Assembly (NCBI GenBank): GCA_027486025.1 | Contig: JAIXPY010000086.1 | Location: forward strand, 1-35,443 | From: Burkholderiaceae bacterium | Lineage (GTDB): Bacteria; Pseudomonadota; Gammaproteobacteria; Burkholderiales; Burkholderiaceae | Direction: 5' to 3' | Length of the DNA stretch: 35,443 nucleotides | In this document: positions 1 through 2,083 of the stretch, piece by piece | How the letters are laid out: each line of letters starts with the position of its first letter | Numbering within the stretch: position 1 is the first letter of the stretch | Notes under the pieces: generated by a model | What the model was told of the DNA's origin: nothing | Seen by the model: only the letters and a program-made list of their open reading frames with translations | Database searches by the model: none | Translations under genes and position numbers: made by a program

Positions 1-76
1 CGGCCAAAGCAAAGAGAAAAACGCCCTGCGCAACCATCGCGCGTAGTGGGTCGTATAGTTTCCAAATTCTCCACAT
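1..76 (-). CDS. pufA: LH1 antenna alpha subunit (PufA), 5' part only
   Basis: Only the first 25 codons are in the window; the gene runs off the left edge. The visible N-terminus MWRIWKLYDPLRAMVAQGVF is the classic start of an LH1 (B875) alpha polypeptide of purple bacteria, which spans the inner membrane once and binds bacteriochlorophyll and carotenoid around the reaction centre. The BChl-ligating histidine would lie just outside the window. A strong Shine-Dalgarno (TTAGGAGA) sits 6-7 bases before the ATG and overlaps the TAG stop of the upstream 73-aa ORF, so translation is probably coupled to it. The rest of the puf operon (pufL, pufM, probably pufC) is expected further left. Confidence 0.95.
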   Translation of the reverse strand, partial: MWRIWKLYDPLRAMVAQGVFLFALA

Positions 77-86
77 AATGTTTCTC

Positions 87-308
87 CTAATTTAAGTAAG
101 ACATAAAGCTATAAACGCCGCTTTCCACTGTCTTAAAAAATGATGCGCCGTCTGAGCTTCCAAACAGCCAGCTTTTTTGAGATGCCGGTAAAGCGATCGT
201 AAGCAAGGCAACCCCAAAGATCACTACATAACTAATTAAAAAAATAAGCTTGAATGACAGTCTGTCGTTCACCAAATTTTTATTCAAAACTTCTGTATTT
301 ATCTTCAT
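87..308 (-). CDS. 73-aa single-helix membrane protein between pufB and pufA (PufQ-like candidate)
   Basis: This ORF sits inside the puf operon, 44 bases after pufB and 10 before pufA. It has its own ribosome binding site (AAGAGGTGA, 3-8 bases before the ATG), and its TAG stop overlaps the pufA Shine-Dalgarno. The protein has a polar N-terminus, one hydrophobic helix at about residues 21-41 (LIFLISYVVIFGVALLTIAL), and a short tail ending in SGVYSFMSYLN. It contains no histidine and no cysteine, so it is not an antenna polypeptide with an axial BChl ligand. I do not recognise the family with certainty. Its size and layout (basic residue, helix, then about 30 residues) resemble PufQ, a 70-75 aa protein tied to BChl intermediate handling, but PufQ is normally encoded upstream of pufB. 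Alternatives are a PufX- or protein-W-like LH1 ring component. Base composition looks more AT-rich than its neighbours. Confidence 0.8.
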   Translation of the reverse strand: MKINTEVLNKNLVNDRLSFKLIFLISYVVIFGVALLTIALPASQKSWLFGSSDGASFFKTVESGVYSFMSYLN

Positions 309-352
309 GATTCACCTCTTCACTTTATTTTCTAAAACTTAATTACTGCTAC

Positions 353-499
353 TTAAAAAAACCATGGACGCCACGCCCATACAAGGATGTGCGCAACGAC
401 GGCGATTGCTGAAAATCCGAGAAGACCTTGCACATAAAATGCATGGAATTCTTGAGCTTCTGCATCGGTAAGCCCAGATATAGATCTGTTTTCACTCAT
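353..499 (-). CDS. pufB: LH1 antenna beta subunit (PufB)
   Basis: A 48-aa protein, [20 protein letters not shown] at the N-terminus and [12 protein letters not shown] at the C-terminus. This is a standard LH1 beta polypeptide. The sequence shows the conserved soluble N-terminal segment [10 protein letters not shown], one membrane helix, the A-x3-H motif with His37 as the bacteriochlorophyll ligand, His19 at the membrane interface, and the terminal tryptophans (W41, W43, W46) that tune the B875 absorption. It pairs with PufA to form the ring around the reaction centre. A Shine-Dalgarno AAGGAG lies 8 bases before the ATG. It is preceded by a structured intergenic leader after bchZ. Its length matches the family (about 47-50 aa). 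Confidence 0.97.
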
Positions 500-622: not shown

Positions 623-2083
623 TCATGCTGTCTCCATCACGCCAAGCGACGTCTTGGATTTATTCACACAATCTACGGTGACTCGCTCTAGATTTCCGCT
701 GCGAGCCTCGCGCTCAGACATATCACGGAGGCGTTTTGCAACAGAGATCTGGGTTAAAACCGGTTGACCGCTGATTAAGCGATTCAGTAGCAATTGCGCC
801 TCAACATCCCAAGGCATGGCATGGATTGCTGTTTGTAGGCGGGCTGGAGTTGGATCAACCTTATCCATTTCAGTGCCCAAGGGCAAAATATGAAAGAGGG
901 CATCAAATAGTGCATTGCATACTTCTTGAATTAAGTAAGCTGCGCCCGAATATCCCATATACGGGGTTCCGGTATGCCGACGAATAATGGCGCCTGGGAA
1001 GGATGCAGGAATATAGGAGCAGCGAGCATTGACTTCGCTGGCATACATCCGTTCGTTGTAACTTCCAAACAAAACAAGTGGTGTTTTCTTTTGCACCAAA
1101 TCACGGATTGCGATGTTGTCGGTTTTTTGACCGGGCATTCTGGATACGGCAAAGTTGCAAGGCAGGCCCATTTCGGTTTCTAAGAAATGGCTGACACCGC
1201 GGGTATAGGTTTCATTAGCCACAATCGCAAAGCTCGCGGTCCCAAAAAAGTCTTGAGTCACGGAGCGCCATAAGTCCCATACCGGCTTGAGCGTTGTATT
1301 TTTTTCTTGTGCAATAAATGGCTCTGGATCGAGACCAGTAAGCTCGCCTAACTTACGCAAAAAGGCAGTCGTTGAGTGCATGCCAATGGGCGCTTGCAGG
1401 TAGGGGCGCTCTAATGTCTCGCAGAGCAGGCGACCAAATTCGCGGTACATACAAATATTCACATCGGAGTCGGCCAATTTTTCAACATCAGCCAAGTGGC
1501 TGCTAAGCGGAAACACCATATTGATTTGGGCGCCGATGCCTTCAACCAGACGCTTAATCTCCGCTAGATCGCTGTATAAATTGAAGGTGCCATAAGCAGG
1601 TCCGATGATATTGATCATTGGCTTTTCGCCCGCTTTGCGCTCTGGCCGCGCTGGAATTTTCTTTAAGCCGTATTCAGTCCATAACCAGTTCATTGCCCGG
1701 TTAGCGCACTGCCACTGATCTTCATCAATGGTTCTCGGTAAAAAGCGTTTAATTCCGGTTCCTTCTGGAGTAACGCCGCCCCCAATCATTTCAGCGATTG
1801 AGCCTGTCACTACTACGGCAGGTAAATCAGGATCAAGCACTTTATGTGCCCGCTTCATGGATTCTTCGGTACCTTCACGACCCAATTGTTCCTCGGCTAG
1901 CCCCGTCACAACAATGGGTAGCTCATGGGGTGGTAAGGCATCGGTGTAATGCAATACGGACGTTACTGGGAGGTTTTCACAACCAACTGGGCCGTCAATC
2001 ACCACCTGCAAACCCTTGATTGCAGTAAATACATAGACAGCGCCCCAATAGCCGCCAGCACGATCGTGGTCTAGAACTAGCAT
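623..2083 (-). CDS. bchZ: Chlorophyllide a reductase subunit BchZ
   Basis: 486 aa, the usual BchZ length. With BchY it forms the nitrogenase-MoFe-like catalytic component of chlorophyllide a oxidoreductase, which reduces the C7=C8 bond of chlorophyllide a on the path to bacteriochlorophyll a. The N-terminus [20 protein letters not shown] and the [21 protein letters not shown] stretch (shown here only as the family hallmark) are highly conserved. Cys35 in PVGCENLP is the expected BchZ-side ligand of the [4Fe-4S] cluster shared with BchY. The start codon overlaps the bchY stop (TAATG, one base), indicating translational coupling. It is the last bch gene before the puf operon, the order seen in most purple bacterial photosynthesis clusters. 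Confidence 0.97.

Follow-up and report, generated by a model that had tools for sequence, protein, structure and literature searches.

The puf operon of Rubrivivax gelatinosus contains two open reading frames (ORFs) of unknown function, one of which, ORF2, lies upstream of pufA (Nagashima et al. 1994, cited in PMC12817894). In the available passages of PMC12817894, ORF2 was still "of unknown function" in December 2025; they test it only as the source of Gemmatimonas pufA2, an origin that was rejected (10.1-14.5% identity, no alpha His), and section 8 of that paper does not mention a relationship of ORF2 to the beta chain. A second such frame, ORF74, is known from Roseateles depolymerans (Suyama et al. 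2002, cited in PMC10037100). In a sigma-factor mutant of this species pufA, pufB and ORF74 were the three most reduced loci (0.71, 1.09 and 2.34% of TPM left), and they are described as forming a single 1-kb transcript (PMC10037100); the passages of that paper available to us give no function for ORF74. By locus number, a further small ORF of the same puf operon, ORF77 (RD2015_RS05175), lies between pufM and pufC (PMC10037100, Table 2). Another small puf gene, pufQ, is required in Rhodobacter sphaeroides for the formation of bacteriochlorophyll (BChl) and antenna, and its product interacts with ferrochelatase (PMC5725709, in the part available).

Judged by its sequence and its place in the operon, the ORF analysed here matches both ORF2 and ORF74, and hence the gene is not new; members of its family lie between pufB and pufA in the four loci L114, L116, L122 and L132.

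Genetic organisation of the locus

The window, i.e. the whole stretch of DNA that was analysed (35,443 nucleotides), carries minus-strand genes of the bchX, bchY and bchZ types, named from their order and size, which lead into pufB, the ORF and pufA. Its relevant features are as follows:

1..76, minus strand: pufA (LH1 alpha), first 25 codons, ATG at 76; PF00556, 3.7e-06; cut by the contig end
81..89, minus strand: stop codon TAG of the ORF (89-87) within TAGGAG, the pufA Shine-Dalgarno (SD) sequence; stop-to-ATG distance 10 nt
87..308, minus strand: the ORF, ATG at 308, TAG at 89-87; a 73-aa His-less protein, probable member of the LH1-beta family and orthologue of ORF2/ORF74
about 312-318 (region 309..319), minus strand: SD-like GAGGTGA of the ORF, just upstream of its ATG
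353..499, minus strand: pufB (LH1 beta), 48 aa, without a C-terminal tail; PF00556, 1.9e-12; NCBIfam pufB_517_ASD, 1.1e-22
623..2083, minus strand: bchZ-type gene (so named by its place in the gene order), next upstream of pufB

Only 25 codons of pufA are present because window and contig (G000:C22) begin at the same base; pufL of the source genome begins at base 22 of another contig (G000:C8). The end of a bchZ-type gene is also found upstream of pufB in relatives.

An earlier note on this DNA had presented the ORF as a real gene for a small protein with one hydrophobic stretch and no His, equipped with its own SD sequence and with a stop that overlaps the pufA SD. All of these features were confirmed: the protein of the window has 73 residues, GAGGTGA precedes its start codon, and its stop codon is the first part of TAGGAG, 10 nt from the pufA ATG. 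The pufA SD overlaps the ORF stop in 122 of the 134 distinct loci in which a pufA start was found.

Distribution of the gene order pufB-ORF-pufA

Within the genus, pufL was detected in 59 of 151 genomes and the ORF, counted from matches at E <= 5.2e-6, in 55, all of them among those 59; in the other four (G091, G101, G109 and G136) the sequence breaks off at a contig end no more than about 310 bases from where pufL starts. The order pufB-ORF-pufA was observed in each of the 48 puf loci of the genus that were read. An unbiased sample of 399 genomes of the bacterial order contained 46 with pufL (45 informative and one cut): 37 with pufB-ORF-pufA (36 loci plus the window's own genome, counted from the window), five with pufB-pufA and a tailed PufB, and three in which a tailless pufB is preceded by a PufQ-like gene. 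Conservation of the arrangement, a check proposed in the earlier note, is thus evident in 48 of 48 loci of the genus and 37 of 45 informative genomes of the order, and the premise from which that note started, that LH1 beta and alpha genes are almost always adjacent, does not hold for this group. Beyond the order, the phylum and class samples yielded 31 loci (a count that leaves out one further pufL match, G968), which comprised 23 of the type Q-pufB-pufA (Q being a PufQ-like gene), eight of the type pufB-pufA and none with the ORF.

The 216 pufL loci that were compared, which include repeats of some genomes, consisted of (i) 173 pufB-ORF-pufA loci (139 distinct), (ii) 26 Q-pufB-pufA loci, (iii) 13 pufB-pufA loci, (iv) two loci with the ORF in which pufB is cut or below threshold, and (v) two uninformative loci. 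Wherever all three genes were present (173/173), the ORF followed pufB and did not lie between bchZ and pufB. The ORF family is common to most sampled phototrophic members of its order. A profile of 17 sequences (A1) matched 307 proteins at E <= 1, the 120 listed including proteins of Piscinibacterium, Ramlibacter and Burkholderiaceae, and a scan of one genome per species revealed 128 places with the family. Among the 80 of these that were kept, the titles include Rubrivivax gelatinosus, R. benzoatilyticus, Roseateles depolymerans, Rivibacter, Piscinibacter, Methylibium, Aquincola, Pseudacidovorax and Polynucleobacter. With identical sequences merged, the full-length family comprises 134 distinct sequences.

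Several records deserve separate mention. Three loci bear the titles Thermoflexus, Methylotenera and Klebsiella (L087, L097 and L119), yet their puf genes look like those of Burkholderiales, and L087 is near same-genus loci; the records are probably MAGs that were mislabelled or mixed. L177, L178 and L186 keep the order pufB-ORF-pufA with a strongly diverged PufA (33-35% to the query). Five beta-like matches over several contigs of one genome of the class sample (G1555) suggest that it has several antenna gene pairs. One protein of 131 aa (P0056) reads as PufB fused in frame to the ORF protein; it is encoded on a 621-base contig, and the fusion may be an assembly effect.

Purifying selection

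The earlier note had raised the case of a dN/dS near 1. Within the genus the median for the ORF was 0.305 (47 sequences, 352 pairs, three of them >= 1), and the ORF is under purifying selection; pufB (420 pairs) and pufA (348 pairs) had medians of 0.078 and 0.089, respectively. Along the ORF, pN/pS was 0.77 over the first 16 residues versus 0.26 over the last 12, although part of the constraint on the latter may be on the DNA, since these codons adjoin the pufA SD.

These values bear on the explanation that the protein has no role and that the reading frame only couples translation of pufA to that of pufB. The overlap of stop codon and SD is indeed widespread, and in one genome (L019, G117) the frame is split. 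Nevertheless, such an explanation is highly improbable in view of the purifying selection, the 134 distinct full-length sequences, the residues of the VYxFMS motif that are invariant in 37 sequences from across the order, and the intact family protein named for Polynucleobacter antarcticus (P0066). In L019 the ORF is split over two frames in a T-rich run (1501-1720), through either sequencing error or decay; this locus was excluded from the dN/dS set, and its partial reading was kept in the set of 134 sequences.

Relationship to the LH1 beta chain

The protein encoded in the window, searched alone, matched no Pfam family. Among 37 diverse members of the ORF family, the antenna family PF00556 was matched by 17 (best 2.3e-4) and NCBIfam pufB_517_ASD by 23 (best 1.1e-11); in P0067, the sole member with scores shown, both antenna models were under their curated cut-offs. 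DUF2567 was matched by 11 of the 37 about as well as PF00556, and PufB too touches DUF2567. In the PDB, a family profile (A2) matched LH1 beta chains (8z81_B, 1.3e-15; 7xxf_B, 1.4e-12). The best stretches end at about profile position 64, and no chain in the searched PDB set has the C-terminal part of the family, so that no solved complex in this set shows the protein. A search of the PHROGs gave no match. With PufB as tblastn query, many of the 80 scanned loci gave the ORF as second match.

Profiles were also compared with hhalign. The ORF family matched tailed Burkholderiales PufB with a score of 135 over 72 columns (Prob 99.8, E 1.6e-28), followed by other tailed PufB (96, Prob 99.2), PufQ-like proteins (73, Prob 98.4) and short PufB (52, Prob 97.2). 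In 50 control shuffles, in which the ORF columns were permuted within the N-terminus, helix and tail, the maximum for these four groups was 22.1, and none came near the scores given above; reversed-sequence controls gave Prob <= 2.2. With an ORF set restricted to the genus, tailed Burkholderiales PufB again ranked first (93.8, Prob 99.1, E 5.5e-19) and the order of the main matches was the same, except that PufQ-like proteins (69.7) stood just above other tailed PufB (66.6). An origin from pufA was rejected, because the profiles do not match (score 13.9, Prob 1.4; 23 of the 50 shuffles scored as high).

On the strength of these comparisons the ORF protein almost certainly belongs to the LH1-beta family and would therefore be of antenna ancestry, a relation that the earlier note overlooked. 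The gene itself is already in print, and what seems to be new is the beta ancestry of ORF2 and ORF74: searches of the open-licence literature of PMC found no statement tying either of them to LH1 beta. It should be added that, among the matches listed, many family members are named "light-harvesting complex 1 beta chain" by JGI pipelines, so automatic annotation has already put some of them in LH1 beta. A tree of the superfamily separates the ORF, PufB and PufQ-like groups (SH-aLRT 90, 90 and 88, none starred); being unrooted and built from few columns, it does not reveal which two of them form a sister pair.

Residues lost and retained

In the joint alignment the axial His that ligates BChl is present in all 131 PufB and in none of the 134 ORF sequences, which have at this position Gln (85), Val (15), Leu (9), Lys (7), Ile (5) or other residues. 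The window member has Ile. Gln can ligate chlorophyll. The earlier claim that the protein, having no His, cannot ligate BChl is thus sound for the window member, but it cannot be extended as a rule to a family in which 85 of 134 members carry Gln. The second His, near the cytoplasmic end (position -18), is found in 128 of 131 PufB; in the ORF family it is outside the ten commonest residues there, single members such as P0069 seeming to keep it and the window member having Lys. The N-terminal motif GLTxxEAxEFH, usual in PufB, is not kept either.

Packing residues, on the other hand, are retained: of the 134 sequences, 131 have Trp at +9, 117 have Trp at +6 and 116 have Ala at -4. The tail is the most conserved part of the protein, as Val, Tyr, Phe, Met and Ser of VYxFMS and one preceding Ser are invariant in the 37 diverse sequences from across the order. 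Lys and Arg are more numerous before the helix than after it in 80 of the 134 ORFs and less numerous in 18, a charge distribution that agrees with an N-in orientation and a tail outside.

Tails of PufB and a possible origin by duplication

The PufB of ORF-bearing operons stops 1-3 residues beyond its final Pro-Trp in 120 of 121 distinct cases (one was not measurable). Of 38 distinct operons that lack the ORF, 21 have a PufB whose tail is 22-28 residues long (12/25 with and 9/13 without a PufQ-like gene), among them all five Burkholderiales operons that have neither the ORF nor a PufQ-like gene. The tail of these five PufB (four distinct sequences) matches the ORF tail with Prob 98.0, compared with 90.8 for other PufB tails and 53.7 for PufQ-like tails. 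The heads of the same Burkholderiales PufB are also the best match of the ORF head (99.2), ahead of PufQ-like proteins (98.4), other tailed PufB (98.2) and short PufB (98.2).

These similarities suggest that a tailed pufB was duplicated in tandem and that the copies then underwent reciprocal loss, an origin that we consider likely. The upstream copy would have kept the His and lost the tail, and the copy that became the ORF would have lost the His and kept the tail. Seventeen of the 38 operons (4/13 pufB-pufA and 13/25 Q-pufB-pufA) have neither the ORF nor a tail on PufB, which indicates that the tail can disappear without being traded for the ORF. The alternative that PufB and the ORF were fused late to give tailed PufB was considered but not preferred, the tail of this PufB being about equally near to Alphaproteobacteria-type PufB tails (Prob 97.5) and to the ORF tail (98.0); these near-equal matches make an ancestral tail the preferred, if not proven, explanation. 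The ORF requires six changes on the pufL tree, of which starred branches force one, but with 42 of 83 inner branches open this tree is too poorly resolved for counting gains and losses.

Relationship to PufQ

The placement of the ORF had led the earlier note to propose, among other roles, a relocated PufQ-type assembly factor. On such a reading the protein would be the Burkholderiales counterpart of PufQ, moved from its place upstream of pufB; it would act in assembly or tetrapyrrole flux, during the formation of pigments and antenna chains, and would not stay in the core complex. Elsewhere, many operons contain a small gene in the interval between bchZ and pufB. Its product is a Rhodobacter-type PufQ in some (PF05398, up to 2.2e-29) and a diverged, PufQ-like protein in others. 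For the comparisons, 13 PufQ-like proteins from this interval in other Pseudomonadota and seven Rhodobacter-type PufQ were chosen by hand.

The ORF profile matches the 13 PufQ-like proteins with Prob 98.4 (E 8.3e-15, 0/50 shuffles), and in the reverse direction the ORF is the best genome-wide match of the PufQ-like profile in all 13 ORF-bearing genomes searched (E 3e-11 to 4e-5). In five Burkholderiales genomes without the ORF the best match of this profile is tailed PufB (E 1e-13 to 3e-10), and PufQ-like proteins and tailed PufB match each other with Prob 97.6. A PufQ-like gene and the ORF occur together in none of the 216 pufL loci (at least 450 bases upstream of pufB were in view for 165 of the 173 pufB-ORF-pufA loci), and the three operons of the order that have a PufQ-like gene, all of one family code (f23), are without the ORF; this exclusivity may partly reflect phylogeny. 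PufQ itself is most conserved at its C-terminus, its mutants are low in antenna, and it interacts with ferrochelatase (PMC5725709, in the part available). The PufQ-like protein of one locus (L216), encoded upstream of pufB by a gene whose end lies 657 bases ahead of pufL, carries His where the beta chain has its ligand (AHFMPKKWRGW).

Other observations argue against a counterpart of PufQ. The search with the Pfam model of PufQ that the earlier note recommended was negative, since PF05398 is matched neither by the window ORF nor, at E <= 10, by any of the 37 members, and is not among the 19 families that these members matched. Against Rhodobacter-type PufQ the ORF scored 22.9 (Prob 32.8), barely above a shuffle maximum of 22.3, and the genus-only set scored 2.0. 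The 13 PufQ-like proteins are so called mainly from their position, and no source name says PufQ; PF05398 matched one of the seven scanned, and weakly (0.021), and they match Rhodobacter-type PufQ with Prob 60. The ORF is, moreover, nearer to tailed PufB (135 or 96) than to these proteins (73), and the five Burkholderiales operons with neither gene nearby imply that the function is dispensable or provided elsewhere. The C-terminus of PufQ is predicted to be cytoplasmic (PMC5725709, in the part available), whereas homology with the beta chain places the ORF tail outside. What survives of the earlier proposal is therefore the match to the PufQ-like profile together with the mutual exclusivity, while the position and the lack of a match to PF05398 speak against it and the score against Rhodobacter-type PufQ is hardly distinguishable from its shuffles; we regard a PufQ counterpart as a real but rather doubtful possibility.

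The origin and exact role of PufQ are disputed. It is conceivable, though we would not call it probable, that the LH1 beta family gave rise, repeatedly or once very early, to pigment-less helpers of the puf operon, PufQ as well as ORF2/ORF74, by loss of the ligand and retention of the tail, each operon having one of them or a PufB that is still tailed.

Possible role of the protein

Taking into account the coupling to pufA (122/134), the kept packing residues and a tail formerly carried by ring chains, we tentatively prefer to see the protein as a subunit without pigment, located within or at the LH1 ring, while the match to PufQ-like proteins and the mutual exclusivity favour an assembly factor. 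That the protein is a permanent, pigment-less subunit of the core complex has, in our opinion, a nearly even chance of being correct. Such a protein would be made in step with PufA, inserted N-in/C-out like a beta chain, and packed against LH1 alpha in or beside the ring, with BChl absent from the usual site; its periplasmic tail would do for the core complex as a whole what, where PufB is tailed, is done by the tails of all beta chains. The variable residue at the ligand position, the N-terminus and the helix (dN/dS 0.305) are looser than expected for a ring subunit constrained like PufB or PufA.

A special case of this reading, with a stoichiometry of one, is a ring-gap protein like PufX or protein-W, present once per core complex and interrupting the LH1 ring for quinone exchange. 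A single hydrophobic helix, without a ligand and co-expressed with LH1, would suit such a function, and there is a possible precedent for a one-copy beta relative in the core complex of Halorhodospira halochloris (8K5O), whose chain 4 (8k5o_4, 105 aa) is a single-copy beta-like chain beside 16 beta chains and matches the family profile at 7.7e-4. However, PufX (PF11511) is not among the Pfam families matched by the 37 members, the PDB matches are confined to antenna chains and a few weak unrelated ones, and the ORF does not share the position of pufX, after pufM. In addition, the location of the gene within pufBA points to more than one copy for every 16 PufA, provided that translation does not differ. 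PufX, protein-W and LH1 gamma, all named in the earlier note, accordingly found no sequence support in the Pfam and PDB searches, and a ring-gap function is unlikely.

If, as we tentatively favour, the protein sits in the ring, the core complexes of most phototrophic Burkholderiales, including Rubrivivax, Roseateles, Polynucleobacter and many lake bacteria, would hold an unpigmented beta-like subunit that is absent from the searched PDB structures. If it instead acts like PufQ, it would be the missing PufQ counterpart of this group, and PufQ would gain an origin in the antenna family. Either role bears on the building and opening of antenna rings, and an ORF known for thirty years in two model phototrophs would acquire an ancestry through which its role becomes testable, that of a beta chain unable to bind its BChl in the usual manner and produced beside LH1 and in step with it.

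Comparison with known systems

PufX, protein-W, LH1 gamma and protein-U are small helical components of LH1 rings or of their surroundings (PMC8564508 and PMC9640540, in the parts available), and in this the ORF protein may resemble them, but none of them was matched by the family in the Pfam and PDB searches; protein-U differs further in having two helices (PMC9640540), and the gamma-like chain of Rhodopila in its length of 22 residues (PMC8564508). PufQ is likewise a small single-helix puf protein with a best-conserved C-terminus (PMC5725709, in the part available), from which the ORF protein is distinguished by its gene position between pufB and pufA and by the lack of a match to PF05398. 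With tailed PufB it shares full-length homology, Trp at +9 and a small residue at -4, whereas it has lost the axial His (134/134) and carries a tail in place of the short end of the neighbouring PufB. The closest likeness is to the two ORFs already described. ORF2 lies upstream of pufA, and locus L122 of R. gelatinosus DSM 1709 encodes a 74-aa member between pufB and pufA; ORF74 has a locus tag between those of pufB and pufA (RS05150, RS05155 and RS05160; PMC10037100, in the part available), and the family member of R. depolymerans DSM 11813 (L132) is exactly 74 aa long.
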